Below are positions 3,454 through 63,222 of a stretch of 64,000 nt of DNA, one piece after another. A program made the position numbers and the translations under genes. The stretch is taken from contig JACRCO010000065.1 in the NCBI GenBank assembly GCA_016218975.1, forward strand, positions 1-64,000, in the 5' to 3' direction. The DNA comes from Deltaproteobacteria bacterium. Lineage in GTDB: Bacteria; Desulfobacterota; Deferrimicrobia; Deferrimicrobiales; Deferrimicrobiaceae. Positions within the stretch are counted from its first letter, which is position 1. The number at the start of each line of letters is the position of its first letter. Below the pieces are notes generated by a model. The model had not been told where the DNA came from and made no database searches. It was given only the letters and a program-made list of their open reading frames with translations.

Positions 3454-5821
3454 TTACAACAAGACATCGGGCGAAAACCCTCTGCGCATCGTGTTTTCCG
3501 TGATGACCCGCGGCTCCATGAACTGGAGGAGGTAATCGGGGCCGCCCGCCTTGGAGCCGACGCCCGACATCCGAAACCCACCGAAAGGCTGCCGGCCTAC
3601 CAGGGCGCCCGTGATTCCCCGGTTGATGTACAGGTTGCCGACGGCGAACGTCTCCCTCACGCGCTCGATGTCGCCGGGCTCCGGGAGAAGAGCCCGCCGG
3701 TCAATGCATAGTCGGAGGAGTTCGCTATCTTTACAGCCTCCTCGATTTCCCGGGCGCGTATGACGGCGAGCACCGGCCCGAATATTTCCTCCCGCAAGAG
3801 CTTCGAATCCGGGGGGAGGTCCGTGAGGATCGTCGGGGAGACGTAATACCCTTCCTCCGGGACCGGGATCTCGGCGGCCACCTTCCCTTCCCTTCTACCG
3901 AGCTCGATGGCTGCCCGCACCCTCTCCTTCGCGGCGCCGTCGATCAGGGGCCCGATCATGTTGGCGGGGTCCTCCGGCGGGCCGACCGTCATGCCCTGGA
4001 CCGCCTCGCACATACGGGCCAGGAAGCGGTCGTAGCAATCCGCGTGGACGATCGCCCGGGAGCAGGCGGAACATTTCTGTCCCTGGTACCCGAACGCGGA
4101 CTGCATCACCGCCGGCACCGCCTGGTCCAGGTCGGCGTCCGCATCGATCAGGATCGCGTTCTTCCCCCCCATCTCCACGACGGCCCGCTTGACCGACTTC
4201 TGCCCCGGCGCGGTCTGCCCCGCCCTCTCCACGATCCGCAGGCCCACGGCCCGGGACCCAGTGAACAGGACGAAATCGACCTCCGGGTGGCTGACGAGGT
4301 GGTCCCCCACGGCATCCCCCTTGCCCGGGATGAAATTCAGCGCGCCGTCGGGGGCTCCGCCCTCCCTCAGCAGGGAGAACGCGAGCCAGCCGTTGACCGG
4401 GGAGAGGCTCGACGGCTTATAGAGGAGGGCACCTGACATGCCGCAAGCTCGTACTTGCGGCGGCGGGCTGCGTCGGCGGCGCGGAACAGTACCTTTGCCC
4501 GTTCCTCCGGAGGGCGCTGCGACCAACTTTGAAGCGCATCGCGTGCGACCGATACAGCGCGATCGGCGAGCTCCCGCGTGATGCCGTGGACGGTTCCCAC
4601 GACCTCCTGCGGGCGTGCCGGATTGACGGAGACGATCGGGTCCCCCTCCCGGTATTCCTTCCCGCCGATGACCGCGGGATAACTCTCCCCCATCCGGCTC
4701 CCGACTTGCGCGATGGCGTTGCGGAAGGCCTGGCGCGTTTCTTCCCTCGTAAAATCCGCCACCGGCTCGTTCGGTATCGGCTTGCACCAGGTAGGCCATC
4801 CCGGGCAGCAGTTCCCCGATCGGGGCGTATTCGCGGACGGTGAACCCCATGGCTTTCAGCGCGCGCTTGATCGGCTCGGCCATGCCGTACAGCATCTGGA
4901 ATTGTGCCGATCAGCCGCAGCAGGTCCTGCTCCGCGCATTTGAGATAGGCCTGGAGGGCGATCCCGGCGGCCTTCCCATCCGTGGAACTCCGGTTCGTCC
5001 AGGGTCCGCGTGAAGACGTCCAGCGTGATGTTTTTGAGGGCGTACATCTCCATGTCGAGGTTCACGAACCCGCCCGCTTCCCGCACCTTGCGCAGGATCG
5101 GCAGCAGCCGTTGCCGGACCCCCCGGACGCTGTCCTCGTGATTGACCGGCCCGATGCGGGAATAGAGGGAGCTGAGCTTGACGGAAAGGTTGAGGCGGGG
5201 AAACAATCGTTCGCGGCGGGGGTCGAACGGGGGCCAATCGGCAATCTCCCGGGATAGCGTGTCCGCCAGCCGCAGGTAGGCGTCCCGGTACCGATCCGCC
5301 TCCGCTTCGGAGACGACCGCTTCCCCCAGGATGTCGACGGTGAAGCTCCTCCCGTCGTTCCGAAGGCGCCGGAGGGAGGAAAGGGCCGCTTCGGGAGTCT
5401 CCCCCGCGATGAAGGTTCTGGAGAAGCGGGCGACGCCCCGTTTCACGAGATACGCGGTGAGCGCCGCGGCGGGCGCGGATGCGAAGCTGGAGCCGGATGA
5501 TGCGCCGGATGCGGACGTTGAGCAGGATCCGGACGCGGCGGCGGAAAGGAGGGAATTCACGATCCCGGGGAGCGGCGATCCGTCGGTCGCGAAGTATTCC
5601 CTGGCGTGCCGGGCGATCTGCCGGCTGTCGGCCAACGCGGGGAGGACGTCCACGAAGCGGAAGAGCGGGACCTTGAGCGCGGGGTCTCGCATCACCCGCT
5701 CCATCATCCTGCCCGCCCACCACTTCCGGTCGAAGACGGCCGGCGTTTCCGTCCCCATGAGCCGGAAGATCTCCAGCCCCTTCGCCCTCACGGCATCCTG
5801 GGCGACGGACTCCGGCCCCAT
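3454..5821 (-). pseudogene. putA: Degraded copy of bifunctional proline dehydrogenase / P5C dehydrogenase
   Basis: Broken paralogue of the intact putA at 36074-39094. The reading is spread over three frames. The N-terminal PRODH part (from 5821) shifts frame near 4970. Compared with the intact copy, three internal blocks of roughly 170-270 bp are missing: near 4907 (end of the PRODH barrel), near 4785 (linker before the ALDH part), and near 4437 (ALDH cofactor-binding part). Another shift occurs near 3670. The last 68 residues (ending GFSPDVLL) are clean. The catalytic GQKCSACSR and EMGGKNA motifs remain but cannot be part of a whole enzyme. The 73 bases before the ATG are about 95% identical to the leader of the intact copy. 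Confidence 0.9.
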
Positions 5822-33654: not shown

Positions 33655-33749
33655 CATAGGCGTGTGAAGTCGGGCCTGCCCGCGAACCGCATGTTGTATC
33701 CCCTGCGGACCAGGTAGGCGTAACGCGGATCGTCCCGCCCGATCTTGTC
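33655..33749 (-). pseudogene. N-terminal shard of a berberine-bridge-type FAD oxidase
   Basis: The minus strand reads DKIGRDDPRYAYLVRRGYNM, RFAGRPDF, the D-P-R-Y...N-x-R-F-x-G-x-P-D motif near the start of BBE-like oxidases. It runs straight into a putA shard. Confidence 0.65.
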
Positions 33750-33756
33750 CGAAGAA

Positions 33757-33950
33757 AGAGGAGGTAATCGGGGCCGCCCGCCTTGGAGCCGACGCCCGAC
33801 ATCTTGAATCCCCCGAAGGGCTGCCGGCCCACCAGGGCGCCCGTGATTCCCCGGTTGATGTACACGTTGACGACGGCGAAGGCATCCCTCACACGTACGA
33901 TCTTCGCCGGACTCCGGGAGAAGAGCCCGCCGGTCAATGCATAGTCGGGG
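33757..33950 (-). pseudogene. putA: C-terminal shard of putA (third copy)
   Basis: The minus strand reads [34 protein letters not shown] and [16 protein letters not shown], the near-terminal part of the P5C dehydrogenase domain. It is about 90% identical to the equivalent DNA of the broken copy at 3454-5821. It ends 11 bases from palindrome copy 11. Confidence 0.85.
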
Positions 33951-33960
33951 GGGTTCGATT

Positions 33961-33989
33961 CTTTAAGATCACAAACTGTGATCTTAAAG
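33961..33989. repeat. Dispersed palindrome, copy 11
   Basis: CTTTAAGATCACAA and CTGTGATCTTAAAG, one mismatch. It separates the putA shard from the ORF6N shard. Confidence 0.8.
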
Positions 33990-36073: not shown

Positions 36074-39000
36074 TCAAAGCAGGATGTCAGGTGAAAACCC
36101 CCGGCGCATCGTGTTTTCCGTGATGGCCCTCGGCTCCATGAACTGGAGGAGGTAGTCGGGGCCGCCGGCTTTGGAGCCGACGCCGGACATCTTGAACCCG
36201 CCGAAGGGCTGCCGCCCCACCAGGGCGCCCGTGATCCCGCGATTGATGTACAGGTTGCCGACCTGGAAGGTCTCCCGCACGCGAGCGATGGTTGCAGGGC
36301 TGCGGGAGAATAGCCCTCCGGTCAACGCATAGTCCGAGGAGTTCGCTATCTGCACTGCCTCTTCGATATCCCTGGCGCGGATGACGGCGAGAACCGGGCC
36401 GAAAATTTCCTCCGTGAGTATCCTCGAATCCGGGGGAAGGTCCGTGAGGATCGTCGGGGAGACGTAATACCCATCCGCCGGGACCGGGATTTCGGCGGCC
36501 ACCCTCCCCTCCCGCCTCCCAAGTTCGATAAATGTGAGTACCTTCTCCTTCGCGGCGGCGTCGATCAGTGGGCCGATCATGTTGGCAGGGACCTCCGGCG
36601 GGCCGACCGTCAAGCTCTGTACCGCCTCGCACAAGCGGGACAGGAACCGGTCGTAGCAATCCGCGTGGACGATCGCCCGGGAGCAGGCGGAGCATTTCTG
36701 TCCCTGGTAGCCGAACGCGGACTGCATCACCGCCGGCACCGCCTGGTCCAGGTCAGCGTCCGCATCGACGATTATCGCGTTCTTCCCCCCCATCTCCACG
36801 ACGGCCCGTTTTACCGACTTCTGCCCCGGCGCGGTCTGCCCCGCCTTCTCCACTATCCGAAGCCCCACGGTCCGGGACCCCGTGAACAGGATGAAATCGA
36901 TATCCGGGTGTCTTACGAGGTGATCCCCGACGGCATCCCCCTTGCCGGGGATGAAGTTCAACGCGCCGTCGGGCGCTCCGCCATCCCGCAGCAGGGAGAA
37001 TGCGAGCCACCCGTTGATCGGAGAGAGACTCGACGGCTTATAGAGAACGGCGTTCCCGGCGACCAGGGCCGCGCCGGTCATCCCTACCGAGATTGCCAGG
37101 GGGAAATTCCACGGGGCTACGACGAGACCCACTCCGCGCGGGCGGTACAGGTAGAGGTTTTCCTCTCCGGGGCAGTCGCCCAGGCGCATCGGCTTGCCCA
37201 GGCGGATCATCTCACGGCCGTAGTATTCGAGGTAGTCGATCGCTTCGGCCACGTCGGCGTCCGCCTCCGCCCAGTTCTTCCCCGCCTCTCGCACCTGCCA
37301 TGCGGCAAGCTCGATCCTGCGGCGACGGGCTTCGGCGGCGGCTCGGAACAGCACCTTGGCCCGTTCCTCGGGGGATCGCCGCGACCAATCTTTTTGCGCG
37401 GCACGGGCGGCAGACACGGCCCTGTCGGCGAGCTCCCGCGTGATCCCGAAGACGGTCCCAACGATTTCCAAAGGGCGGGCCGGATCGACGGAGACGATCT
37501 GCTCCCCCTCCCGGTATTCCTTCCCGCCGATGAACGCAGGATAGTTCTCCCCCATTCGGCTTCCTACCCGCGCGAGGGCGTCCCGGAATGCGTTGCGGGT
37601 CTCTTCCCTCGTGAAATCCGCCGCAGGCTCGTTGGAAAACGGCGCGATCCCTTCCGGATCTTTCCCGTGCGACGTTTCCTGCGAGTATCCTTCCGGCTCC
37701 GCAAGCAGCGCTTCGGGAGATACGTGCTTCATGAATGCCTTCTGGAGGAACCCTTCGTTCGAGGCGTTTTCCAGCAGGCGGCGAACCAGGTACGCCATCC
37801 CGGGGAGAAGCTCCCCAACGGGTGCGTATTCGCGAACCGCGAACCCCATCGACTTGAGTGCGCGCTTGATCGGTTCGCCCATGCCGTAGAGCATCTGGAA
37901 CTCGTAATGTTCCCGGGGGACCTCCAATCTTTCGGCCGTCGCCAGCGCCTTGGCGATCGAACGAACGTTGTGGGATCCTACGGCAAGCGTCACGTACTCG
38001 TGATATTCCATCGCAAGTTCCACGCACCGCTCGAAGCTCGCATCCGTGTGCATCTTCCGCGGGAAGACGGGAATCTCCCACCCCTTTTGCCGCGCCACGA
38101 CGGTCTCGTATTCCCAGTAGGCCCCTTTCACCAACCTGATCGTTACGCGCCGGTTCCTCTCTTTCGCCCAGCCGATCAGCCGCTTCATGTCCTGCTCCGT
38201 GCATCTGAGATAGGCCTGGAGGGCGATCCCGGCCCCTTCCCATCCGCGGAACTCCGGTTCGTCCAGTGTTTGCATGAAGACGTCCAGCGTGATGTTTTTC
38301 AGACTGTGAATCTCCATGTCGAGGTTCACGAACCCGCCCGCCTCCCTCACCTTGCGAAGGACCGGCAGGAGCCGTTTTCGGACCTCGCGGACGCTGTCCT
38401 CGTGATTGGCAGGGCCGATGCGGGAAAAAAGGGAACTGATCTTGACGGAAAGATTGAGGCGGGGGAAGGATTCTTCCATGCTCGGGTCGATCGGAGGCCA
38501 GCCGGGGATCTCCCGGGAGAACGTGTCGGCCAGCAGCAGGTAGAGATCCCGGTACCGGTCCGCTTCCGCCTCGGACACTACCGCCTCCCCCAGGATATCG
38601 ACGGTAAAAGTTTTCCCCTCGTTCCAAAGGCGGCGCAGGGAAATCAGGGCATCCTCGGGAGATTCTCCCGCTATGAAGGTCTTCGAGAAGCGGGCGACAC
38701 CCCGTTTCACGAGGGCCGCGGTGAGCGCTGCGGCGGTTGCGGAGGCAAAGCCGGCTGAAGAGGCGGAAGCCGGGCTTGAGGCGGACGGATCGCGATCTGA
38801 ACCCGAGCCGGCTGCGGAAAGGAGAAAATTGATGAAACCGGGAAGCGGCGACTCGCCGCCTTTAAAATATTCACCGGCGTGCCGGACTACCTGCCGGCTG
38901 TCGGCCAGCGACGGGAGGACGTCGATGAACCGGAAGAGCGGGATCTTGAGTGCGGGGTCGCGCATAACCCGCTCCATCATCCGTCCCGCCCACCACTTCC

Positions 39001-39094
39001 TGTCGAAGACGGCCGGCGTCTCCGTCCCCATGAGCCGGAAGATCTCCAGCCCCTTCACCCTTACGGCATCCTGGGCGCCGGACACCGGCCCCAT
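36074..39094 (-). CDS. putA: Bifunctional proline dehydrogenase / P5C dehydrogenase (intact)
   Basis: 1006 aa. Oxidises proline to glutamate in two steps: an FAD proline dehydrogenase (residues about 100-460; RRVTIRLVKGAYWEYE, HNVRSIAKAL, YEFQMLYGMGEPIKRAL) that feeds the quinone pool, and an NAD-dependent glutamate-semialdehyde dehydrogenase (about 500-990; VEMGGKNA with the catalytic Glu near 768, GQKCSACSR with the nucleophile Cys near 800). No N-terminal ribbon-helix-helix repressor domain is present. A Ser/Ala-rich insertion near residues 98-130 is odd. GGGAGG seven bases before the ATG decides the start. A broken copy (3454-5821) and a shard (33757-33950) exist. It faces the YHS gene terminator. 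Confidence 0.95.
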   Translation of the reverse strand: MGPVSGAQDAVRVKGLEIFRLMGTETPAVFDRKWWAGRMMERVMRDPALKIPLFRFIDVLPSLADSRQVVRHAGEYFKGGESPLPGFINFLLSAAGSGSDRDPSASSPASASSAGFASATAAALTAALVKRGVARFSKTFIAGESPEDALISLRRLWNEGKTFTVDILGEAVVSEAEADRYRDLYLLLADTFSREIPGWPPIDPSMEESFPRLNLSVKISSLFSRIGPANHEDSVREVRKRLLPVLRKVREAGGFVNLDMEIHSLKNITLDVFMQTLDEPEFRGWEGAGIALQAYLRCTEQDMKRLIGWAKERNRRVTIRLVKGAYWEYETVVARQKGWEIPVFPRKMHTDASFERCVELAMEYHEYVTLAVGSHNVRSIAKALATAERLEVPREHYEFQMLYGMGEPIKRALKSMGFAVREYAPVGELLPGMAYLVRRLLENASNEGFLQKAFMKHVSPEALLAEPEGYSQETSHGKDPEGIAPFSNEPAADFTREETRNAFRDALARVGSRMGENYPAFIGGKEYREGEQIVSVDPARPLEIVGTVFGITRELADRAVSAARAAQKDWSRRSPEERAKVLFRAAAEARRRRIELAAWQVREAGKNWAEADADVAEAIDYLEYYGREMIRLGKPMRLGDCPGEENLYLYRPRGVGLVVAPWNFPLAISVGMTGAALVAGNAVLYKPSSLSPINGWLAFSLLRDGGAPDGALNFIPGKGDAVGDHLVRHPDIDFILFTGSRTVGLRIVEKAGQTAPGQKSVKRAVVEMGGKNAIIVDADADLDQAVPAVMQSAFGYQGQKCSACSRAIVHADCYDRFLSRLCEAVQSLTVGPPEVPANMIGPLIDAAAKEKVLTFIELGRREGRVAAEIPVPADGYYVSPTILTDLPPDSRILTEEIFGPVLAVIRARDIEEAVQIANSSDYALTGGLFSRSPATIARVRETFQVGNLYINRGITGALVGRQPFGGFKMSGVGSKAGGPDYLLQFMEPRAITENTMRRGFSPDILL

Positions 39095-47142: not shown

Positions 47143-48144
47143 ATGAAAGGGAGAGTGTTCGCACTTGTTCCATTCCTGGTCGCGGCGTGGATATCCGCTG
47201 CGTCGGCAACTGTGTCGATCCAGGAGTACGATATTCCGACGCCAGCTTCCTTTCCCCACGATCCTGCCGTCGGCCCCGACGGATCGCTTTGGTATACGGG
47301 AATGCGATCGAACATGCTGGGGCGTCTCGATCCGAAAACCGGAAAGATCCGCGAGTATCCGATAAAAACACCGGAATCGGGTCTGCACGGGCTGGCGGCC
47401 GACAAGGACGGGAACATCTGGTTCACCGCCAGCTACAAGGGATACATAGGCAAGCTGGATCCGGCGACCGGTCAGGTCACCGAGTACCCGATGCCCGACC
47501 CGGGTGCGCGCGATCCGCATACGCCGGCGTTCGACGGCAAGGGAATTCTTTGGTTTACGGTCCAGTCGGGGAACTTCGTGGGGAGACTCGATCCCGAAAC
47601 CGGCAAAATCACCCTTATTCGCCCTCCAACGGCCGGCGCCCGTCCTTACGGAATCGTAGTCGATGCGAAGGGTATCCCGTTTTTTTGCGAATTCGGCACG
47701 AACAGGATCGGCAGGATCGACCCCGCAACCATGACGATCACCGAGTACCGACTGCCGGAAGGGGCCAGGCCGCGGAGGCTCGCCGTCGCGCCTGACGGGC
47801 TCGTATATTACACCGACTACTCGCGCGGTTACCTTGGGCGCCTGGAACCCGACAGCGGAAAGACGGAAGAATGGCCGTCGCCCGGAGGCAAGGGGTCGAA
47901 ACCGTACGGGATCGCGGTCGGGACAATTGGCGAGGTCTGGTACAGCGAGTCGGGACCCGAACCGAACACGATCGTGATGTTCGATCCGAAAACGAAGGCG
48001 TTTTCGCGCTGGGCGATCCCTTCGGGCGGTAAAGTGATCCGCCACATGGCAGCGGCGCCTTCAGGGGATATCTTCATTGCATGCAGCGGAGCCAACAAGG
48101 TCGGGATCGTAAATACCGGTCTTGCGCGAACGAACGGCAAATAA
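47143..48144 (+). CDS. Vgb/SMP-30-like beta-propeller protein, exported
   Basis: 333 aa. Signal peptide 1-22 (ending SAASATV), then propeller blades of the same type and order as the protein at 8739-9719 (GNIWFTASYKGYIGKLDPAT, KGIPFFCEFGTNRIGRIDP, GLVYYTDYSRGYLGRLEPDS). The two proteins are clearly recent paralogues. No lipobox Cys is seen here, unlike its relative. Resembles virginiamycin B lyase, but the substrate is unknown. Confidence 0.85.
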   Translation: MKGRVFALVPFLVAAWISAASATVSIQEYDIPTPASFPHDPAVGPDGSLWYTGMRSNMLGRLDPKTGKIREYPIKTPESGLHGLAADKDGNIWFTASYKGYIGKLDPATGQVTEYPMPDPGARDPHTPAFDGKGILWFTVQSGNFVGRLDPETGKITLIRPPTAGARPYGIVVDAKGIPFFCEFGTNRIGRIDPATMTITEYRLPEGARPRRLAVAPDGLVYYTDYSRGYLGRLEPDSGKTEEWPSPGGKGSKPYGIAVGTIGEVWYSESGPEPNTIVMFDPKTKAFSRWAIPSGGKVIRHMAAAPSGDIFIACSGANKVGIVNTGLARTNGK

Positions 48145-48212: not shown

Positions 48213-49439
48213 ATGGCCACGTTCTCAAAGGTCGTCGAATTGCGGGGTCACATCATAGACTCCCTCACCTTTCCCAAGGTCCTGGACGAGATCCTGGACC
48301 ACGGCGCCGAGTACGAAACGGAAGAGATCGACGTCGGAAAGAAGCGCCAGGACCCGAGCTACGCACGCATCCGGATCACTGCGCCGTCGGAGGAGGTCCT
48401 GCTCAAGGTCCTCGGGCACATCCGGCGCCTGGGGGCCATGGCGGTCGAAGAAGAGGAAGTACGCCTGGATCCGGCTCCGGGCGACGGCTTCTTTCCCGAC
48501 GGCTTCTATGCGACTACAAATCTTCCCACCTGGGTTCGGCACGGAGGCCGCTGGCTGGAAGTCGAAGACCTCTGTATGGACAGCGGTATCCGGGTGCTCC
48601 CTGAGGAAGGCCGGGCGGCCTGCGTCAAAATGTACCAGGTCAAGGCAGGCGACTTTCTGGTGGCGGGTCAAGAAGGCGTCCGCGTGGAGCCCCTGAGGAA
48701 GGAGCTCTCCCGCCGCGGGCTCTTCGAGTTCATGTCCAGCACCGTCTCACCCGAGAAACCGAAGGTGCTTATCATCGATGAGATAGCCCGGGAGATTAGG
48801 CGGATAAAGATGGAAGGCGGGGGACGGATTCTCTGGGTTCTGGGGCCGGCCCTGGTACATACGGGAGCCCGGGACTGTTTCAGCGCCCTCATCGAAGCCG
48901 GGTACGTGGACGCGGTCTTCGCGGGGAACGGTCTCGCCGCGCACGATATCGAAGTTTCCCTGTACGGCACTTCCCTCGGCGTATCGACCAGGGGGGGAAA
49001 GATCCTCCCGCGGGGACACGAGCACCATCTCCGCGCCATCAATTTCATCCGGTCCGTGGGGGGGATCTCGCGGGCGATCGAGCTGGGTCATCTTTCAGAC
49101 GGCATCATGCATGGCCTCGTCAAGGCCGGAATCCCATACGTTCTTGCCGGCTCCATCCGCGACGACGGCCCCTTGCCGGAAGTGATCACCGACGCCGTCG
49201 AGGCCCAAAAGCGGATGCGGGAGCTCTGCCGGGGGGTGTCCATGGCCGTGATGATCGCCACCATGCTCCACTCCATCGCCACGGGCAACCTGCTGCCCGC
49301 GAAGGTCCGCACGGTGTGCGTGGACATCCAGTCCGAAATGGTGACCAAGTTGGCCGACCGGGGGACCCATCAGTCGCTGGGCCTGGTAACCGATGCCGAG
49401 CTGTTTCTGCGCGAGCTCGCCGGGAAGCTCAAGGGATGA
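48213..49439 (+). CDS. TIGR00300/LOR-SDH-type ornithine cyclodeaminase
   Basis: 408 aa. The N-terminal LOR/SDH-like region (TFSKVVELRGHIIDSLTFPK, GAEYETEEIDVG) and the C-terminal nucleotide-binding region (RILWVLGPALVHTGARDCFS, VDAVFAGNGLAAHDIEVSLY, GHEHHLRAINFIRSVGGISR) match TIGR00300 proteins. An archaeal member and the C-terminal half of cyanobacterial AgrE/ArgZ convert ornithine to proline and ammonia with NAD. Here it is a separate gene, directly followed (start adjacent to its stop) by the arginine-dihydrolase-like gene. Proline made here could be used by PutA at 36-39 kb. The activity is inferred from homology. Confidence 0.88.
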   Translation: MATFSKVVELRGHIIDSLTFPKVLDEILDHGAEYETEEIDVGKKRQDPSYARIRITAPSEEVLLKVLGHIRRLGAMAVEEEEVRLDPAPGDGFFPDGFYATTNLPTWVRHGGRWLEVEDLCMDSGIRVLPEEGRAACVKMYQVKAGDFLVAGQEGVRVEPLRKELSRRGLFEFMSSTVSPEKPKVLIIDEIAREIRRIKMEGGGRILWVLGPALVHTGARDCFSALIEAGYVDAVFAGNGLAAHDIEVSLYGTSLGVSTRGGKILPRGHEHHLRAINFIRSVGGISRAIELGHLSDGIMHGLVKAGIPYVLAGSIRDDGPLPEVITDAVEAQKRMRELCRGVSMAVMIATMLHSIATGNLLPAKVRTVCVDIQSEMVTKLADRGTHQSLGLVTDAELFLRELAGKLKG

Positions 49440-50294
49440 ATGAACGGGCCGATCGGCCCGATGACACGCATAGCCCGCATTTCTGACGGGGGGGCTTCCT
49501 TGCGCCGCATCCTCATGTGCGAACCGGCCTACTACGGCATCGAGTACGAGATCAACCCATGGATGTCCCGCGCGCGCCAGGCCGATCCCGCCCGTGCCCG
49601 GAAACAGTGGGAGGACCTCTACAACCTGCTCGAAAATAAACTGGGGCTTTCGGTCTCGCTCCTTGCGCCGGTCGAGGGGGTCCCCGACCTCGTCTTCACC
49701 GCGAACGCCGGCCTGGTCCGCGGGAACACCTTCATCCCGAGCAACTTCCGGCATCCCGAGCGCCGCGCGGAAGCCCCGGTCTTCCGGCGTTGGTTCGAAA
49801 AGGAAGGCTACGATATCCGCCCCCTTCCCGCGGACCTTCCCTTCGAGGGGGAGGGCGACGCTATCGAGGTCGGCGGCGAGATGTTCTGCGGCTACCGGCT
49901 CCGCTCAGACATCCGCACCCATGTCCACCTCGGAGAGTTCGTGGGAAAGCGGGTCCTGTCGCTCGAGCTCGTGGATCCACGCTTCTATCACCTGGACACC
50001 TGCTTCTGCCCGCTCGCGGAGGACGCCGTAGCCTGCTATCGTCCCGCCCTCGATCCTTATGCCCTTAAGGTGATCGAGACCTACGTGCCCCGGATGGTCG
50101 AAATCTCCAGGGAGGACGCGCTCCGGTTCGCCTGCAATGCCGTGGTGGCGGGGAAAAAGGTCGTGCTGAACGCCGGCTGCGGGGATTTCAGGCGGAGCCT
50201 TCGGAAGTCGGGATACGAGGTGTGGGAGACGGACCTCTCGGAGTTCATAAAGGCCGGCGGCGCCGCAAAGTGCCTGGTGCTTTTCCTGGATTGA
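49440..50294 (+). CDS. Arginine-dihydrolase/DDAH-like amidinotransferase-fold enzyme
   Basis: 284 aa, guanidine-modifying superfamily (alpha/beta propeller). Motifs: VPDLVFTANAGLV (Asn), FEGEGDAIEVGG (Glu/Asp), His in YHLDTCFCPLA, and nucleophile Cys (about residue 247) in VVLNAGCGDFRRS. The FTANAG/HLDT/NAGC pattern is that of the arginine-guanidine-removing part of cyanobacterial AgrE/ArgZ rather than ordinary arginine deiminase. The ATG at 49440 follows the stop of the ornithine cyclodeaminase without a gap. Likely reaction: arginine to ornithine plus CO2 and ammonia; citrulline formation is the alternative. Confidence 0.85.
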   Translation: MNGPIGPMTRIARISDGGASLRRILMCEPAYYGIEYEINPWMSRARQADPARARKQWEDLYNLLENKLGLSVSLLAPVEGVPDLVFTANAGLVRGNTFIPSNFRHPERRAEAPVFRRWFEKEGYDIRPLPADLPFEGEGDAIEVGGEMFCGYRLRSDIRTHVHLGEFVGKRVLSLELVDPRFYHLDTCFCPLAEDAVACYRPALDPYALKVIETYVPRMVEISREDALRFACNAVVAGKKVVLNAGCGDFRRSLRKSGYEVWETDLSEFIKAGGAAKCLVLFLD

Positions 50295-53265: not shown

Positions 53266-54720
53266 TCACGGACCGGGAACCAGGCCTGCGGCCGCCGCCT
53301 GGATCAGGCGCAGGAGCGGGGCCGGGTATACGCCGATTCCGACGAGGAGCAGGACAAGCCCGGCCAGCGTGACAATCCCGGCAAGCGGAACCGCAGGCGC
53401 GAACGGAGCGGTACCGGCTCCCTCCCCCGGCAACCGCGAATAGACCGCAACGATGATCCTGAGGTAATAGAAGAGGCCGATGGTGCTGCCGAGCACAAGG
53501 GTTACCACCGGGAGCCACGCCTCCACCCGGATGCCTGCCGCAAGGATGTAGAACTTTCCCACAAATCCCGCGGTCAACGGAACTCCCGCCAGGGACAGGA
53601 GAGCCGCCGAAAAGATCCCGGCCAGCCAGGGCCGGCGCAGGAAGAGGCCCCGGTAATCGTCGATCGCATCCGCGTCCCGGTCCGGCCCGGACATGACGGT
53701 AACGACTCCGAAGGCCGCCAGCGTGGTGATGAAATACGCAACCAGGTAAAACATCACCGCTTCCCAGGCAAGGGGACCTCCCGCCGCAAGAGCCACCAGC
53801 AGGTAACCCAGGTGAGCGATCGAGGAATAGGCGAGAATGCGTTTCACGTTGCTTTGCAGGAGGGCCAACAGGTTTCCCGCCAGGATCGAAGCCACCGCGA
53901 CGACGTTTATCGCCGCCAGCGCGGACGGGGAATCGTAGGCCCCCGCGTCGACCACGTACCGGAGGAGAAGCGCCGCCATGGCGCCCTTCGACACGGTGGC
54001 CACGAAGGCCGTCGCGGGTGCGGGGGCTCCCTCGTAGACGTCCGGTGTCCACAGGTGGAATGGGACCACTCCCAGCTTGAACCCCGCCCCGGCGAGGATC
54101 AGCCCCAGCCCCGCAAGGAGATAGGCGTCCCGGAACCCGCCTGCAAGGGAAAGCGACGCGCCTGGACGCACGAACTCCATCGTCCCGCAGCGGGCGTACA
54201 CCAGGGCCATCCCGAAGAGAAGGAAGGCTGATGACGCACCCGCGAGGATAAGGTATTTCAGTCCAGCCTCGAGGGAAATATCGCCCTCCCGCGGGTAGGC
54301 GACCATGGCGTAGAGCGAGACGCTCAGGAGCTCCAGCCCCAGGAAGAAGGACGCAAAGTGCCGGCTCCCTGCCAGGACGGCCGAACCCAGCACCGCGAGA
54401 AGCAGGAAGAAGTAGAATTCCTCCTTCGGGTCCGGCCTGTCCCGGAGATACCCGAATGAAATGAGGACCACCGCGAAGCCCGACGCGAAGATCAGTCCCA
54501 TGCAAAAGAGGGCGTACCGGTCGACTGACAGGAGCGGAGTGACCTGCCGGGGGGACAGCGGGGATACCGCCGGAACGAGCGCGAAGGCCGCGGCGAGGGA
54601 GAGGGCCGCCAGTCCGGCCGCAAGCGCGTGGCTGCGGAAAGTGGCGGCGATCATCACAGCCACCGACCCCGCGGCGACCGCGATCAGCGGAAGAAGGGCG
54701 AGCACGTCGGAGGCGGGCAT
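53266..54720 (-). CDS. nuoN: NADH-quinone oxidoreductase subunit N
   Basis: 484 aa, a 14-helix antiporter-like Complex I subunit that forms part of the membrane arm. Key stretches: FFLGLELLSVSLYAMVAYPR (Glu of TM5), KYLILAGASSAFLLFGMALV, GAGFKLGVVPFHLWTPDVYE (the TM8 loop with Lys/His), VKRILAYSSIAHLGYLLVAL and TAGFVGKFYILAAG. Gene order and size match NuoN at the end of the nuo operon. It begins three bases after the nuoM stop. It ends nine bases from thiD, so the two operons converge. Confidence 0.95.
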   Translation of the reverse strand: MPASDVLALLPLIAVAAGSVAVMIAATFRSHALAAGLAALSLAAAFALVPAVSPLSPRQVTPLLSVDRYALFCMGLIFASGFAVVLISFGYLRDRPDPKEEFYFFLLLAVLGSAVLAGSRHFASFFLGLELLSVSLYAMVAYPREGDISLEAGLKYLILAGASSAFLLFGMALVYARCGTMEFVRPGASLSLAGGFRDAYLLAGLGLILAGAGFKLGVVPFHLWTPDVYEGAPAPATAFVATVSKGAMAALLLRYVVDAGAYDSPSALAAINVVAVASILAGNLLALLQSNVKRILAYSSIAHLGYLLVALAAGGPLAWEAVMFYLVAYFITTLAAFGVVTVMSGPDRDADAIDDYRGLFLRRPWLAGIFSAALLSLAGVPLTAGFVGKFYILAAGIRVEAWLPVVTLVLGSTIGLFYYLRIIVAVYSRLPGEGAGTAPFAPAVPLAGIVTLAGLVLLLVGIGVYPAPLLRLIQAAAAGLVPGP

Positions 54721-54723
54721 GTC

Positions 54724-56223
54724 TCACCTCCCCGCCGGCGCGGAAGCGACGGAGACGGACGCGGCGATGCGGTAGAGATCCGGCGCCGCCGTGTCGATCA
54801 AGGTTTGCGGGCGCAGCCCGATCCACAGGAGAAGGGCTATCATCGCGGCCATTACAACCATCTCCCGCATCGTGAAGTCCGGGAAGGTCCAGCCACGCAC
54901 GTTCGACCCGTGAAAGGTCTGCTGGACCAGGCGCAGGGAGTAGACCGTCGCGGCGACCAGGCCGACGACGGCGACGGCCGTTACGGCGGGATCGACCCGG
55001 TAAGCCCCCAGGAGCACCAGGAACTCCGCCACGAAGTTGCCGATGCCGGGCAGGCCCAGGGAGGCAAGGGCGAAGAAAAGGCCTGCCCCCGCCATCCGCG
55101 GGGAGACCGCCCACAGCCCCTCCATCATGTCCATGTCCCGCGTGTGGATCCTCTCCTGGAGCGCCCCCGCCAGGATGAAGAGGCCCCCCGTGCTGAGCCC
55201 GTGGCAGATCATCTGAAGGACCGCGCCCTGGAGCGCCAGGACGCTCCCGGAATAGATCCCCAGCATGACGAATCCCAGGTGGCTGACGCTCGTGTACGCC
55301 ACCAGCCGCTTCAGGTCGGACTGGGCGAAGGCCAGCAAGGCGCCGTAAAGGATACCGGCCGCCCCCAACGCCATGGCCAGGGGCGCGAATGCGCGCGCCG
55401 CTTCCGGAAAGAGAGGGACGGCGAAGCGCAGGAGGCCGTAGGCGCCCGTCTTGAGGAGAAGACCGGCGAGGATCACGCTCCCCGCGGTGGGCGCCTCCGT
55501 GTGGGCGTCCGGAAGCCAGGTGTGCAGCGGCACTGCGGGCAGCTTCACGGCGAAGGCTGCAAAGAAACCGAGCATGAGCCACCATGATGTCGCCCCTCCC
55601 ATCGGGGTGCCGAGGAGCCGCTCGTAGTCGAAGGTGTAGACGCCGGTGGCGCGGTGATGGACGAAATAAAGTCCCAGGATGGCGAGGAGCATGAGCAGCC
55701 CGGAGAGCTGCGTGAACAGGAAGAACTTTACCGCGGCGTAGATGCGGTTCTCGTGGCCCCAGACGGCGATGAGAAAATACATCGGGACGAGCATCAGCTC
55801 CCAGAAAAAATAGAAGAGGAAAAGGTCCAGGGACAGGAAGACGCCCAGCACCCCCGAGAGGACCCACATCAGGTTGAAGTGGAAGAACCCGACCTGTTCC
55901 CGGATCTCGGTCCACGAAGCGGCCACCGCGGCGATCCCCAGGAACACGGTCAGCGCCGAAAGAAGCAGGCTGATCCCGTCCATCGCCAGGCGGAGGCCGA
56001 TTCCGAAACGGGGTATCCAGCTCCACCGCAGCTCCGCGATCCAGCCGCCGGCCGACCCGTCCATCCGTGGGAATGATACGGCCCACAGGACGAGGACGAG
56101 CAGTAGATCGAGTGTCAGGGCGGCAAGGCAGACCCAACGGGGCCGGCGCGCGTCTCCGCACTCGAGCAGCCAGGCGACGACTCCCCCTGCAAGCGGGATG
56201 AGAATGAGTACCGGCAGGATCAT
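54724..56223 (-). CDS. nuoM: NADH-quinone oxidoreductase subunit M
   Basis: 499 aa from the ATG at 56223, which overlaps the nuoL stop (ATGA); the longer frame to 56457 lies inside nuoL. An antiporter-like proton channel: FYFFWELMLVPMYFLIAVWG (Glu), AVKFFLFTQLSGLLMLLAIL, AVKLPAVPLHTWLPDAHTEA (the TM8 Lys/His region), DLKRLVAYTSVSHLGFVMLG and MICHGLSTGGLFILAG. All expected helices seem to be present. Confidence 0.95.
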   Translation of the reverse strand: MILPVLILIPLAGGVVAWLLECGDARRPRWVCLAALTLDLLLVLVLWAVSFPRMDGSAGGWIAELRWSWIPRFGIGLRLAMDGISLLLSALTVFLGIAAVAASWTEIREQVGFFHFNLMWVLSGVLGVFLSLDLFLFYFFWELMLVPMYFLIAVWGHENRIYAAVKFFLFTQLSGLLMLLAILGLYFVHHRATGVYTFDYERLLGTPMGGATSWWLMLGFFAAFAVKLPAVPLHTWLPDAHTEAPTAGSVILAGLLLKTGAYGLLRFAVPLFPEAARAFAPLAMALGAAGILYGALLAFAQSDLKRLVAYTSVSHLGFVMLGIYSGSVLALQGAVLQMICHGLSTGGLFILAGALQERIHTRDMDMMEGLWAVSPRMAGAGLFFALASLGLPGIGNFVAEFLVLLGAYRVDPAVTAVAVVGLVAATVYSLRLVQQTFHGSNVRGWTFPDFTMREMVVMAAMIALLLWIGLRPQTLIDTAAPDLYRIAASVSVASAPAGR

Positions 56224-58112
56224 AGAAACAGCACGATGGCCACGAGGCCTGCGGCTCCCGCCGCGATCGCCGCGGCGTACCAGCGCACGTTCCCGGTCTG
56301 GGTCCGGACGAGGACGCGGTGCAGCATCCTGTTGAAGAGAGCCACGCCGTCGTAGAACGAGTCGATGAAATCGTCCCGGTTGACCGCCGCCGCCCGAACG
56401 ACCGGGCGGACGATGAGCCGGTCGTACAGCCGGTCGAATCCCCACCCCGAGAGCCATAACCGGTGCACCGCCTCCCCCATCGAAGTCCGGGCCAATCGAT
56501 CGATGACGCCGGGGCGGCGCAGGAACAGCAGGTACGCCACCCCGATGCCAAGGAGCGATGCGGCGATCGCGAGGAGCTGCGGAATCACCGATGCGCCGGC
56601 GACTCCTTCAGGTTCCGCGGGGACCGGGAGTGCGGTTCCGAGGAATCCGGTGAGCCGGGCGGAGCCGCCAAGGGTCCCCGGGATCTCGACGAACCCGGCC
56701 CCGACGGAAAGAACCGCGAGGACCGCCAGCGGAAGCTCGATCCGGACGCTCGGCCTCCTGTCGGCAGGCCCCTTCGGAGCCCCGAAGAAGACCTGGAATA
56801 TCAGGCGGAAGATGTAGATCCCGGTGATGACGGCCCCCGTCCACCCGGCCGCAAAGAGCCACGGCCCCCCGGAGGGCGAGGACCATGCGTGCCGTAGGAT
56901 CTCGTCCTTGCTGTAGAATCCCGCTGTCACCAGGGGGAAGCCGGAGAGCGATGCCCCGGCGGCAAGGAAGGTCCAGAATGCCAGCGGAAGCTCCTTCCGC
57001 AGGCCTCCCATCCGGAAGATGTCGTGCTCGTGGTGCAGGGCCCGGATGACGGCGCCTGCCGCAAGGAACAGGAGCGCCTTGAAGAACGCGTGGGTCATGA
57101 AGTGGAAGATGGCGGCCGTATACGCCCCCACTCCCAGTGCAAGGAACATGTAACCGATCTGGCTGATCGTCGAGTAGGCGAGGACCCTCTTTATATCCCT
57201 TTGCACCATGGCGCTTGCTCCCGCCACGAGGAGCGTCAGGGCCCCGATCACGGCGACGGCGTGCTGGACGGGGGGAGCCAGGGTGTAAAGCGCATGTGTG
57301 CGGGCGACGAGGTAGACCCCCGCGGTCACCATGGTGGCGGCGTGGATCAGGGCGGAGACCGGGGTGGGGCCCGCCATGGCGTCCGGCAGCCATGTCTGGA
57401 GGGGGATCTGGGCGGACTTTCCCAGCGCCCCGCCGAGCAGAAGCGCCGCGGCGGCGACAGGCATCGCCGATCCCGGCGTCCACGAAAGCCCCGCCCGCCG
57501 CATCATCTCCTGGATATCCATAGTTCCCAGCTCGGTGAAGACAAGGAAGAGGCCGACGGCCATCGCGGCATCGCCGATCCTGGTCACGATGAAGGCTTTT
57601 CTGGCCGCCGCGCCGTTGGCGGGGTCCTTGTACCAGAAGCCGATGAGCAGGTAGCTGCACAGACCCACTCCTTCCCAGCCGAGATACAGAAGGAGCAGGT
57701 TGTCGGCCAGCACCAGGATGAGCATCATCGCCACGAAGAGGTTCATGTAGGCGAAGAACCGGCCGTACCCTTCCTCCTCGATCATGAACTCGGAGGAGTA
57801 AAGGTGTATGAGGAAGGCGACGAAGGTGATGACGGCCATCATCAACAGGGAGAGCGCGTCAAGGCGCAGCGCGATCCGGGGCGCAAAGCCGTCGATGTCG
57901 ATCCAGGTCCAGAGCTGCTGGACGAAGGCGTGGCCGGGGGGAGGATGGACCAGGAAAGAGGCGGCGACAAGAAGGGCCCCCAAGGCCGAGAGCCCCACGG
58001 CGCCCACGCCGACAAGCGCGGCCTGCGGCCTCGTGAGCCGGCCCGCTCCGGCGGCCAGCACGGAGAAGCCGGCGAGCGGAAGCGCGGGGACGAGCCACAG
58101 AAGGGACAACAT
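56220..58112 (-). CDS. nuoL: NADH-quinone oxidoreductase subunit L
   Basis: 630 aa, the terminal antiporter-like subunit. Motifs: LYLGWEGVGLCSYLLIGFWY (Glu), KSAQIPLQTWLPDAMAGPTP, VSALIHAATMVTAGVYLVAR, QRDIKRVLAYSTISQIGYMF and FHFMTHAFFKALLFLAAGAV. The C-terminal part carries the long amphipathic (HL) helix and an extra helix (WYAAAIAAGAAGLVAIVLFL). Starts six bases after the nuoK stop and overlaps nuoM. Confidence 0.95.
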   Translation of the reverse strand: MLSLLWLVPALPLAGFSVLAAGAGRLTRPQAALVGVGAVGLSALGALLVAASFLVHPPPGHAFVQQLWTWIDIDGFAPRIALRLDALSLLMMAVITFVAFLIHLYSSEFMIEEEGYGRFFAYMNLFVAMMLILVLADNLLLLYLGWEGVGLCSYLLIGFWYKDPANGAAARKAFIVTRIGDAAMAVGLFLVFTELGTMDIQEMMRRAGLSWTPGSAMPVAAAALLLGGALGKSAQIPLQTWLPDAMAGPTPVSALIHAATMVTAGVYLVARTHALYTLAPPVQHAVAVIGALTLLVAGASAMVQRDIKRVLAYSTISQIGYMFLALGVGAYTAAIFHFMTHAFFKALLFLAAGAVIRALHHEHDIFRMGGLRKELPLAFWTFLAAGASLSGFPLVTAGFYSKDEILRHAWSSPSGGPWLFAAGWTGAVITGIYIFRLIFQVFFGAPKGPADRRPSVRIELPLAVLAVLSVGAGFVEIPGTLGGSARLTGFLGTALPVPAEPEGVAGASVIPQLLAIAASLLGIGVAYLLFLRRPGVIDRLARTSMGEAVHRLWLSGWGFDRLYDRLIVRPVVRAAAVNRDDFIDSFYDGVALFNRMLHRVLVRTQTGNVRWYAAAIAAGAAGLVAIVLFL

Positions 58113-58117
58113 TTCCG

Positions 58118-58426
58118 TCAGCCCCGCATCCGGCTGGCCGCGTCGGCGTCCACCGTCTTGAACCGGTGGAACATACGCAGGACCAGCGCCAGCCCGACGG
58201 AGACCTCCGCGGCCGCCATCGTCAGGATGAAGATGAACATCACCTGGCCGTCGGCCTGCCCCCAGCTGGAGCCGGCGACCACGAAGGCGAGCCCCGCCGC
58301 GTTGAGCATAATCTCGATCGACATCAGGATGAAGATGACGTTGCGGCGGACGAGGAGCCCGGCGAGTCCCAGCCCGAAGAGGATCCCCGCCAGCAGCAGT
58401 CCGTGCCCGACCGGAGCCGCGCCCAT
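58118..58426 (-). CDS. nuoK: NADH-quinone oxidoreductase subunit K
   Basis: 102 aa, three helices, normal size. [40 protein letters not shown] (Glu of MSIEIMLNA) and [20 protein letters not shown] (the second Glu), the two conserved glutamates of the proton path. Start at 58426 follows nuoJ closely; the longer frame lies inside nuoJ. Confidence 0.94.
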
Positions 58427-58430
58427 GCCG

Positions 58431-58964
58431 CTACTCCCCTCCCCCTCGCCCGTGTCCCGAATCCCGATCCGTGCCGCGCCGGCCGAGGTGGTACGCGCCA
58501 ACGAGCCCCGCAAGGAGCAGCATGGAGGCCAGCTCCACGCCGAGCAGATACGGTCCGTACAGGACGATCGCAACCTGCTTGGGCCCGACTACCAAGGCGC
58601 CGGAGACCTTCTGTGCGGTCTCGCCGCGCGACAGTACGTAGATCAGCTCGATGAGCAGGAGGACGCAAAGGGCCGCGGGCCCGCCCCAGATCCCCGGACG
58701 AAGCCACGACGCTTCCTGCGCAGCCGCCGCCTTCCCCAGGTTGAGCATCATGATGACGAACAGGAAGAGCACCATGATGACGCCCGCGTAGACGATAACT
58801 TCCAGGGCGGCGATGAACGGCGCGCCCAGGGAGAGAAAGACCAGCGCCACGGACAGGAGCGACACGACAAGGTATAGCAGGGCGTGCACGGCGGAAAGCC
58901 GCGTGATCACCATCGCAGTGGAGAAGATCGCGACGGCGGCCGCGATGTAGAAGGTCGTGCCCAT
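58431..58964 (-). CDS. nuoJ: NADH-quinone oxidoreductase subunit J
   Basis: 177 aa, five helices: [60 protein letters not shown] (the TM3 with the conserved Y-A-G-x-I-M-V-L pi-bulge) and a polar loop before the last helix [20 protein letters not shown]. Sits between nuoI (30 bases upstream) and nuoK. Confidence 0.94.
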
Positions 58965-58994
58965 GCGCGGTCCTTCGTCCGCCCCGGGGGCCTC

Positions 58995-59546
58995 TTACGG
59001 CAGAAGCCCCTTGGGGTCCGCCGGAGGCTCCTCGTTCTCGGCCTCCCCCTTCTCCTTCCCCTTGATCGCGAGTCCCGCTACACGGTAGAAGTTGTACTCC
59101 GGGTATTTCCCGGGACCGCTGATGAGCAGGTCCTCCTTCTCGTAGACCATGTTCGCGCGGTCATACTCGCTCATCTCGAAGTCGGGGGTGAGCTGGATGG
59201 CGTAGGTCGGGCAAGCCTCCTCGCAGAAGCCGCAGAAAATGCAGCGTGAAAAGTTGATCCGGAAAAACTCCGGGTACCGCCGGCCGTACCCGTCCTCGGT
59301 CGCATCGAGGGCGATGCAGTCCACGGGGCAGGCGACGGCGCACAGGTAGCAGGCCACGCACCGTTCCTCGCCGTCGGGGTCCCGGGCCAGGATGATTCGC
59401 CCCCTCCACCGCGGCGCAAGGTACGCCTTCTCCTCAGGGTACTGCACGGTCGCCTTCCTGCGGAAGAGGTGGCGGAAGACCTCCCACATTGTCCGCAGCG
59501 AGCTTGCGATCGCGCTATCGGGAGAGAAGGGATGTCCGCCCGTCAT
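58995..59546 (-). CDS. nuoI: NADH-quinone oxidoreductase subunit I (two [4Fe-4S])
   Basis: 183 aa from the ATG at 59546, overlapping the nuoH stop (ATGA). Two ferredoxin-type cluster motifs: [12 protein letters not shown] and [12 protein letters not shown], clusters N6a and N6b that carry electrons to quinone. The N-terminal helix ([20 protein letters not shown]) anchors it to NuoH. The C-terminal 30 residues are Lys/Glu/Pro-rich. Confidence 0.95.
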
Positions 59547-60505
59547 GATCCCCCCCGCGCAGCCAGCACGATCCCGCCCGTGACGACCAGGTTGAGGAGG
59601 GACAGCGGCAGAAGGAACTTCCATCCGTATGCCATGAGCTGGTCGTAGCGCGGTCTCGGCAGGGAGGCGCGCAGCAGGATGAAAAATCCGACGAATAAGA
59701 GGGTCTTTAGCAGAAACCAGGCGACGGGAGGAAGCCCCGGACCGAGCCAACCTCCGAAGAACAGCGTCGCGATCAGAGCCGAGACCAGGGTTACGCCGAT
59801 GTACTCTCCGACGAAGAACATCCCGAACTTCATCCCCGAGTACTCGGTATGGAATCCCGCCACCAGCTCGCTCTCCGCCTCGGGAAGGTCGAAGGGTAGC
59901 CGGCGGGTCTCGGCGATCCCGGCGATCGTGAACACGATGAAGCCCGGGAGCTGGGGAACGACGAACCACATACTCTTTTGCGCCTCCACGATCTCGCGCA
60001 GGTCGAAGGAGCCGGCCAGGATCACCACCCCCATGAGCGACAGCCCCATGAAAACCTCGTAGGAGAGCATCTGCGCCGCAGCGCGCAATCCTCCCAGGAG
60101 GGAATACTTGCTGTTGGACGCCCATCCCGCCAGGACCACGCTGTAGACGGCCAGGGAGGACATGGCGAGGACGAAGAGCAGCCCGACGTCGAGGCTCGCG
60201 ACGCCGATGCCGGGCGCGACGGGGACGACGGCGAACGACAGGAGCGCCGTGACAACGATGATCGCCGGCGCGAGGACGAACGCGTGCCGCTCCGCAAAGG
60301 GGGGGATCCAGTCCTCCTTCGCGAAGAGCTTGATCATGTCGGCCACCACCTGAAAAATCCCCTGGGGACCCACCCGGTTCGGCCCGTACCGGTCCTGCCA
60401 GAAGGCGAGGAGGCGGCGCTCCGCCCAAACGAGGACGGCGGCCGCTGTAAGCACGGCCCCCAGGATCCCGAACACGTTGAGAAGCGCGCTCGCCGTTCCT
60501 GTCAT
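59543..60505 (-). CDS. nuoH: NADH-quinone oxidoreductase subunit H
   Basis: 320 aa, eight helices, the quinone-site subunit. Marks: [51 protein letters not shown] (Glu), [20 protein letters not shown] and [20 protein letters not shown], the E-x-E loop of the quinone cavity. The start at 60505 overlaps the nuoG stop (ATGA). Confidence 0.95.
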
Positions 60506-63222
60506 GGCCGCTCCGCCGCCTTGATCGTCCCGAACCCGGGCAAAACCGCCCCCTTCCACCCGCCCATCCCCGCCGGCAGGCCGGCCGTGCCGCGGGGGAG
60601 ATCAGGCCGCAACGAAACCGGCAGGTAGCGGACGGCCCCGCCCAGTACAAGCTCCGCGTTTCCCCCCGGCTCGATCCGTAGCGCTGTGGCGTCGCGCGGG
60701 TTAAGCGCAAGGTAGGGAGCGGGCGCACGTTGGTTTATGGCCGGGGAAAGGGCGCTCGTCTCTTCCGAGCCGAAGATGTGGTGCAGGGGCAGGACAAGGA
60801 ATGACCCCTCCCTCGGCAAGAACGCCGGGGGGATCTCCTCGAACCACGCCGCCCTTCCGGATGTTGACGCCTCGATCAGCCGGATGCCGCTCTCCTCCCC
60901 GATCCATGGGGCGGCCCCCTCCGCCTGGAACTTGATCGTCGCCTGGACCGAGTTCCACGAGGGCGCCCAGAACCGGGAAACAAGCGGCGCCGGGGGGATC
61001 CCCGGGAACCCTTCCATTGAAAATGAGAGCGCGTTATCGGGGTCGTCGGGAGGTCTCGGCTCGTGGACGCTTAAGTTCGCCAGGATCGCTGTGCGGCCGC
61101 TGTAGCGTTGCGGCTGCCTCGGGATCTTCTGTCCCGCGATTCGGAATTCGGCGTAAGGGGCGCACTCGGAAATTCGCCGGAAGACGGGCAGCGCCTCGGC
61201 GAGGGCGGCGGCGACGTCGTCCACCTTTTTCCACTCCGCACCCTCCGGTCTGCCGAGGGATGAAAGGGCGTCATGCAGCCAGCGCCAGCTTTCCCGTATT
61301 TCTCCGTTCGGGGAGAGCACCCGATGGAATCGCTGCGCCCGCCCCTCGCCGCTCACCACAGTTCCGTTCGTCTCGGCGAAGGTCCCCCCGGGCAGGAGGA
61401 GATCCGCCTTCGAGGCGGTGTCGTGAAGCAGGTGGTCGACGACGATCACGTGCTTCGCCTTCCCCAGGAAGGCGTCAACTTCCGCGGCATCCGCGCGGCG
61501 GTAGAGGTCGTTCTCCAGAACGATTACCGTGTCCGCATTTCCCTCCTCGACCGCCCGGAACGCCTCCGGGAGGCTTCGGCCTTCAAAAAGCGCCAGCCCG
61601 AGGGCATTGCACTCGGGGACAGTGAAGCAGAGCCTCGCCGGCAGGCCCGACTCGCAGAGGGCCCGCGCTATGTTTGCAGCGGCGAGGATCACCGGCTCGC
61701 TGCCGCACCCGGTCCCCGAGACGACGAGCGGCAGCCTAGCGCCCGAAAGCGCCGCCGCGATCTCCGCGCCCAGGGCCCGCGCTTCTTCAGAAAGGTCCGG
61801 GACCGGGGGCGCGTCGGCGGACAGCTCCCTGGCAACCGCGAACCCCAGCCTGGCCAGGTCGTCGGGCGCGGCGCGGTACGTCCGGACGGCCAGGTCGTCG
61901 AGCTTCGTGCCGCAAGGCGAGGCGATGAAGAACGGGCCCCGATCGTCCTGAACGGCATCCCGGACCGCCCCGTCGTGCCAGAGGGGGATCTTCAGCCGTT
62001 CCGCGATCCGCATCGGGGCCTGGCGCGCCGACTGCCGGAGAGCCAGCGCCAGCCGCGGGGCCGTGTTCGTCACGTCCTCTCCCAGCACGAGCACCGCATC
62101 GCACTCCTCCACGTCCCTAATGGATGCAGCGGGCGCCGGGCCGTCCCGAAGGATGCCGGCGATGCGCCGGACCAGGCGTGACTCGCCTTCCGCCATACCG
62201 GCGTGGAACCGCTCCGGGCCCACAAGGGTGCGCAGCCCGAAGTTCGCCTCGAGCGAGGCGCGGGGGGACCCTATGCCGATCACTCTCCCGCTCTCCGAAA
62301 GAAGGCGCGCAAGGAGATCCTGCGCCTCTTCCCGGCGGGCGGCGACGGGGGTTGCGCCCCGGCCCGGCGCGCGCAACGGCTGCCGGATACGGTGTTCCCC
62401 ATTGACGAACTCGTAGCCGAACCGCCCCCGGTCGCACAGAAAATAACCGTTGACCTCGCCGTTGTACCGGTTGAGAATTCGTCGCAGCGTGCCGTACCGC
62501 TCTCCGGGTATCGTGTTGCACCCCAGGCCGCAATGCATGCATACGGAAGGCGCGGTCTGGAGGTCCCACTTCCTCGTGTAATGTATTTTCAGCGTCTTGT
62601 CGGTGAACACGCCGGTGGGACATACCTCGACGAGGTTCCCGCTGAATTCGTTTTCCAGCGTCCCGTCCTCGTGCCGTCCGAAGTAGACGTAGTGGTGCGC
62701 GCCCAGCGCCTGGAGATCGCGCCCCCCTGCGTAATCCCGGTAGAAGCGCACGCACCGGTAGCAGGCGATGCACCGGTTCATCTCGTGGTTGACGAAGGGA
62801 CCCAGGTCCTGGTTCCGGAAGGTCCTCTTCCGGAACCGGTACCGGCGGTAGGCGTGGCCGGTCATCACCGTCATGTCCTGGAGATGGCACTCGCCGCCTT
62901 CGTCGCAGACGGGACAGTCGTGGGGGTGTCCGACCATGAGCCACTCGATGACCCGTGCGCGGAATTCGCGCGCCTCCGGGTCGTCGATCGAGATTAGCGT
63001 CCCGTCGGCCGCCGGGGTCATGCACGACATAACTATCTTTCCCTTCGTGTCGCGCTCGTCCTGGAACTGCCTTACAGCGCACTGGCGGCACGCGCCCACG
63101 GAGTGCATCGCCGGGTGCCAGCAGAAGTAAGGGATGTCGAATCCCAGGGACAGGCAAGCGTGGAGGAGATTCTGCCCGTCCTTTACTTCGTACCATTTTC
63201 CGTCAACCCGGATTCGCGCCAT
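60502..63222 (-). CDS. nuoG: NADH-quinone oxidoreductase subunit G (with molybdopterin-type domain)
   Basis: 906 aa, from ATG 63222 two bases after the nuoF stop. The N-terminal ferredoxin domain has C-x11-C-x2-C ([13 protein letters not shown]) plus VMSCMTPA for N1b; the His-ligated N5 [13 protein letters not shown]4 C-I-A-C-Y-R-C...VEVCPTG. An extra C-M-H-C-G-L-G-C...FLCDRG matches the N7 cluster that many NuoG proteins have lost. The rest is the large bacterial molybdoenzyme-like domain without the cofactor ([20 protein letters not shown]). Confidence 0.94.

Follow-up and report, generated by a model that had tools for sequence, protein, structure and literature searches.

The window analysed here is a stretch of 64,000 nucleotides, and two genes lie on its + strand without any spacing. 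The first (48213-49439, 408 aa) encodes an ornithine cyclodeaminase (OCD) of the TIGR00300 type, equivalent to what AgrE and ArgZ carry at their C-terminus but present here as a stand-alone protein. The second (49440-50294, 284 aa) encodes an ArgZ-type arginine dihydrolase. When the ORFs are read, the stop codon of gene 1 is immediately followed by the ATG of gene 2 (0 nt between), so that the original prediction of two adjacent, gapless ORFs is exact in its coordinates. Its reading of the pair also proves largely correct. AAGGG stands directly 5' of this ATG. Gene 2 could instead start from a TTG at 49500, which would give the better N-terminal match, relatives beginning near residue 22. Upstream of the pair, 47143-48144 (+) encodes a virginiamycin B lyase-like beta-propeller protein, which scores far under the cut-offs for true streptogramin lyases. 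The ORF at 13940-22531 (-) is very long, at 2863 aa.

Gene 1 scored 510.6 bits against TIGR00300, above the curated equivalog cut-off of 410.8, and the alignment covers positions 3-405 of the 407 in the model. All three C-terminal domains of ArgZ/AgrE were recognised by Pfam (PF21570, 314 bits; PF04455, 115 bits; PF21571, 89 bits). PF04455 is the N-terminal Saccharop_dh_N domain of the protein (48213-48467, +, about 85 aa), for which a modelled relative shows a ferredoxin-like fold. The top PDB match is the archaeal 3c2q (E 9e-101), and AgrE and ArgZ are also matched, in their C-terminal part. The stretch of OCD motifs (48858-49271, +), which runs from H216 (48858-48860) through H244 (48942-48944) and H269-H272 to H353 (49269-49271), is intact, and H216, H244, D245, GTSLG, GHxxH, RDD, H353 and D371 are all identical to AgrE and 3c2q. 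These active-site motifs suggest an enzyme that is active on ornithine, as the original prediction needs. No classical OCD (PF02423) was found in the window genome by profile search, and this candidate was rejected. The cofactor of gene 1 may be NAD+ or the nickel-pincer nucleotide (NPN), for which the sources differ: the NCBIfam family is named nickel-pincer-nucleotide-dependent, whereas the title of the AgrE crystal 6lrg gives a complex with ornithine and NAD+. No paper on a nickel-pincer-dependent ornithine cyclodeaminase was found in a search of the open-access literature.

The top PDB matches of gene 2 are AgrE (6lrf) and ArgZ (6jv0/6juy), with E values of about 1e-71. Its score against the NCBIfam arginine dihydrolase model (NF052232) is 285 bits, under the cut-off of 450, and that against the Mtb-type dimethylargininase model (NF045659) is 252 bits, under the cut-off of 300. 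The NF052232 cut-off was passed in 0 of 198 relatives' genomes and therefore seems to have been set on cyanobacterial sequences. Because gene 2 misses this cut-off and its dimethylargininase score is not far below its dihydrolase score, it is called a dihydrolase on the strength of its residues and its context and not of a model score. At all catalytic positions checked (AgrE N22, N71, R90, E118, D122, R139, H168, D170 and C264), the residue is the same in each of the 77 sequences compared from outside cyanobacteria, that of the window among them. By alignment, N89 (49704-49706, +) corresponds to AgrE N71, where the PDB chain 6juz has Ser, and E136 (49845-49847, +) corresponds to AgrE E118. 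H184-L185-D186 (49989-49997, +) contains the catalytic His (AgrE H168) and, at His+2, the Asp of AgrE D170. C278 (50271-50273, +) is the nucleophile, equivalent to AgrE C264, and PDB 6lrh is titled as the C264A mutant.

According to the ArgZ and AgrE structure papers, N71 is reportedly needed for dihydrolase activity. Since gene 2 reaches neither cut-off, it might encode a dimethylargininase (DDAH) or an arginine deiminase (ADI) instead of a dihydrolase, which we regard as very improbable. At His+2 of the catalytic site, Asp is the residue of ADIs and Lys that of DDAHs (PMC11659421). At this position gene 2 has D186, which argues against dimethylarginine as the substrate, and the Asn retained at the AgrE N71 position argues against a citrulline-forming deiminase; dimethylarginine as substrate and citrulline as product are two of the three outcomes that the original prediction had named against itself. 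In addition, DDAHs are matched with E 2e-8 or worse versus 1e-71 for ArgZ, no arginine deiminase is among the PDB matches listed for gene 2, and the conserved partner OCD uses the product of a dihydrolase as its substrate. The pair would thus comprise an arginine dihydrolase and an OCD.

The bifunctional AgrE/ArgZ family (NF052231) is one polypeptide with the dihydrolase first. Here two ORFs are separated by a stop codon and the OCD comes first, and the family and PDB matches bear out the predicted split AgrE/ArgZ with reversed gene order. When one genome per species was scanned, 537 relatives of gene 2 were recovered, and the best 80 of the 537 were read. These were chosen by similarity to the window-family query and include no cyanobacteria, and the frequencies are valid for this sample only. 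Grouped by the titles of their records, the best 80 span Planctomycetota, Verrucomicrobiota, Chloroflexota, Myxococcota and other 'Deltaproteobacteria', Nitrospirota, Armatimonadota, Nitrospinota and Actinomycetota. A full OCD gene lies directly upstream of ArgZ on the same strand in 60 of the 80 best loci, across eight phyla, and the distance is 100 nt or less in 52 of these 60, always with both genes on the same strand. This recurrence indicates that the adjacency is not due to chance. The two-gene order that was to be surveyed in other genomes was therefore recovered, and the local rarity that had been implied was overturned by the 80-locus survey, OCD-then-ArgZ being the usual non-cyanobacterial order among the best matches.

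Among the other loci of the best 80, the OCD is cut by the contig edge in 2, only the N-domain is upstream in 4, no OCD is upstream despite sufficient room in 10, and 4 are cut off. Fourteen loci have no linked OCD, and for 10 of them a full OCD was present elsewhere in the genome. In the dihydrolase tree most phyla form single clades, which points to a long history of the enzyme in these phyla. The idea of a conserved PutA operon was rejected, because an aldehyde dehydrogenase is directly upstream only in L060-L062, L064 and L103 and PutA is nearby only in L068. Against the NCBIfam models listed, these upstream aldehyde dehydrogenases stayed below every equivalog cut-off. In same-family relatives no other window gene tested recurs near the pair, so the pair travels alone, with no local pathway context. 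The split two-gene form was not found described in a search of the open-access literature; the pathway is known, and the split arrangement and the loss and swapping of its parts appear to be little described.

The window genome assembly is 97.6% complete and was examined by targeted family searches. An intact PutA with the Pfam domains PutA_N, Pro_dh and Aldedh is encoded at 36074-39094 (-), so that the window genome contains the PutA that belongs to the AgrE-PutA pathway, and it is the probable proline sink. The pair had been predicted to feed PutA. The intact PutA in the window agrees with this, but its gene is about 9 kb away, on the opposite strand and outside the operon. Co-occurrence with putA, which was proposed as a check, is common and not obligatory: a proline dehydrogenase was found in 36 of the 50 ArgZ genomes of the set and was not found in 14, many of which are incomplete MAGs. 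Enzymes of the PutA family deliver electrons to quinone, and the predicted coupling to Complex I through the quinone pool, a weaker part of the prediction, is general to this chemistry. Complex I subunit genes are located at 53266-60559 (-) in the window. A broken second putA is present at 3457-5821 (-), in six pieces that are 56-91% identical to the intact PutA, with changing frames and with residues about 309-397 and 584-668 absent. A fragment of a putA 3' end (33740-33970, -), 74% identical to PutA residues 909-990, lies about 2 kb past the 3' end of the intact putA.

The sole ureohydrolase of the genome scores as an agmatinase (212 bits, cut-off 174), with an arginase score of 83 bits (cut-off 228), and an arginase was rejected. 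By these scores there is no detectable arginase in the genome, which is consistent with the predicted urea-free route. For proline synthesis, ProC was found in the genome with 268.6 bits (cut-off 196.75), and the OCD is therefore dispensable for this function. Alternatively, the OCD could be the proline source of the cell, with ornithine provided by ArgZ. The archaeal family member MMP1218 makes proline from ornithine (discussed in PMC10809761), and proline dehydrogenase is absent from some pair-bearing genomes, both of which agree with such a biosynthetic role. However, the presence of ProC and of the intact PutA in the window speaks against it, and we consider it improbable.

We propose that the pair carries the AgrE/ArgZ activities as separate subunits and serves a route from arginine through ornithine and proline to glutamate via PutA, with a probability of roughly 0.83. 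The two genes would be expressed as one translationally close unit. From arginine, the 284-aa enzyme would form ornithine, CO2 and two ammonia, and the 408-aa enzyme would cyclise ornithine to proline with loss of the third ammonia. PutA, encoded elsewhere in the genome, would oxidise proline to glutamate and pass the electrons to quinone. Overall, arginine would yield glutamate and three ammonia, and neither urea nor citrulline would be formed. We infer the reactions, their catabolic direction as opposed to proline synthesis, and a physical association of the two proteins.

The AgrE-PutA route has been described in Anabaena (PMC8262935), and an ornithine-ammonia cycle has been described for cyanobacterial ArgZ (PMC8262935, PMC9952445). 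By analogy with the latter, the pair may serve nitrogen release and recycling, in which ornithine mostly returns to arginine synthesis and the OCD and PutA act as an overflow. Several lineages keep ArgZ without a functional OCD, and in these ornithine by itself suffices as the product. Nevertheless, an intact OCD stands beside ArgZ in most loci, which favours the proline branch, and recycling as the main function is possible but rather unlikely. The preferred reading remains the catabolic route through proline.

In most verrucomicrobial OCDs some of the motifs have been lost by substitution (H216 to R, H244 to Y or R, with changes in GTSLG and RDD), and their ArgZ proteins are unchanged. Such an eroded OCD is found beside an intact ArgZ in L087, L088, L089, L094, L097, L099, L100, L102 and L105, and likewise in L108, L110, L112, L113, L115, L120, L125 and L130. 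LarC inserts nickel in the synthesis of the nickel-pincer cofactor. It was found in 0 of these 17 genomes with eroded OCD, and both verrucomicrobial genomes that have LarC (L132 and L136) have an intact OCD. In L123 the OCD is intact and LarC was not found. The association between OCD erosion and LarC absence gave Fisher p values of 0.016 within Verrucomicrobia and 3e-7 overall, the states being inherited and not independent. When phylogenetically independent pairs were counted, about 2 were for the OCD-LarC link and 0-1 against, which is too few for significance. Outside Verrucomicrobia no association between OCD erosion and LarC was observed. These results are suggestive of an OCD erosion that depends on the cofactor supply through LarC; they fit such a link and do not show it.

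Eight genomes have an intact OCD without LarC, which sits badly with a strict nickel-pincer dependence unless the assemblies are incomplete, and many genomes in the LarC comparison are incomplete MAGs. LarE, LarC and LarA were all found in the window genome, LarA being another NPN user. Strict NPN dependence was rejected as a conclusion from genome content, because the window genome itself has LarA too and the phylogenetic pairs are too few. It is also countered by G011 and seven non-verrucomicrobial genomes, in which the OCD is intact and LarC was not found. About 15% of genomes, including many cyanobacteria, have larB, larC and larE without larA, and these probably encode another NPN-binding protein (PMC11796402).

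In L062, L092, L122, L153, G004 (L027/L157) and apparently L116, the OCD is cut down to an ORF of about 80 codons that keeps the conserved residues of the N-domain. The L153 case is a second copy in the L115 genome and lies at a contig end. The N-domain-only ORF is directly before ArgZ in all cases except L153, where the contig ends. A structure model of the L122 N-domain protein (1873-2121; mean pLDDT 74) matches PDB structures of Saccharop_dh_N from MJ1480 as well as this domain in ArgZ and AgrE. Among relatives of the window genome, a strong ArgZ was found in 0 of the 12 genomes whose OCD is without the N-domain and in 6 of the 9 whose OCD has it, kinship being ignored in both counts. This suggests that the N-domain goes with ArgZ. 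Full-length OCDs without ArgZ also occur, for example in M. jannaschii.

In G004 (L157, 5777-10385), the N-domain and ArgZ genes are convergent with two further genes. One encodes an aldehyde dehydrogenase, the other an ornithine-family aminotransferase of the PRK05769 type (602.8 bits, cut-off 552). The same dehydrogenase and aminotransferase genes adjoin ArgZ in L071, where the aminotransferase scored 621.5 bits and no TIGR00300 protein was found in the genome. The two L071 enzymes share 54% and 63% identity with their G004 counterparts. The same dehydrogenase subfamily (38-46% identity) is encoded directly upstream in L060, L061, L062, L064 and L103. We read the pair of enzymes in G004 and L071 as a probable replacement of the OCD, which would convert ornithine to glutamate semialdehyde and then to glutamate. 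An aminotransferase and a dehydrogenase beside ArgZ in two loci without OCD catalysis fit ornithine as the ArgZ product.

A tentative model, to which we give somewhat less than an even chance, is that ArgZ has in the N-domain a dedicated partner or regulator and that OCD catalysis is a removable, nickel-pincer-dependent part. Loss of the cofactor would lead to a dead OCD and then to the N-domain alone with ArgZ intact, while in some lineages an aminotransferase and a dehydrogenase would take over ornithine. The fused AgrE would then be one outcome of a modular system. This story of OCD loss and swap is interesting and not yet demonstrated. Intact, eroded and N-domain-only OCDs beside an unchanged dihydrolase amount to a natural experiment on the cofactor of TIGR00300 and on the role of the N-domain. 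The AgrE-PutA arginine route would also reach at least eight phyla beyond cyanobacteria. For uncultivated bacteria of these phyla, annotations of arginine catabolism are probably wrong, since the dihydrolase misses the NCBI cut-off and falls near dimethylargininase.

The enzymes of the pair have likenesses in several known systems. The dihydrolase shares the guanidino-group-modifying superfamily and the Cys/His/Glu active site with DDAH and arginine deiminase, but it differs from them by Asp and not the DDAH Lys at His+2, by Asn at the AgrE N71 position and by a much weaker match. Classical OCD of the mu-crystallin family (PF02423) has the same proposed reaction and belongs to a different family. 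The archaeal TIGR00300 OCDs (MMP1218; 3c2q and 3mgj) are stand-alone proteins of the same family, and MJ1480 (3mgj) has the same N-domain. In contrast to the window protein, 3c2q aligns only from residue 79, and no arginine dihydrolase match was found in the archaeal control genomes. The closest likeness is to AgrE (Alr4995, Anabaena) and ArgZ (Sll1336, Synechocystis), with which the pair shares both domains, the dihydrolase catalytic positions checked, the OCD motifs and the N-domain, and the presence of PutA in the window genome extends this likeness to the AgrE-PutA route. Unlike AgrE and ArgZ, which are bifunctional single proteins, the window has two proteins, a gene order that reverses the domain order, and a non-cyanobacterial host. 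We would class the locus as a split form of the AgrE-PutA route, which is itself known, and this form is widespread in the phyla that were sampled.
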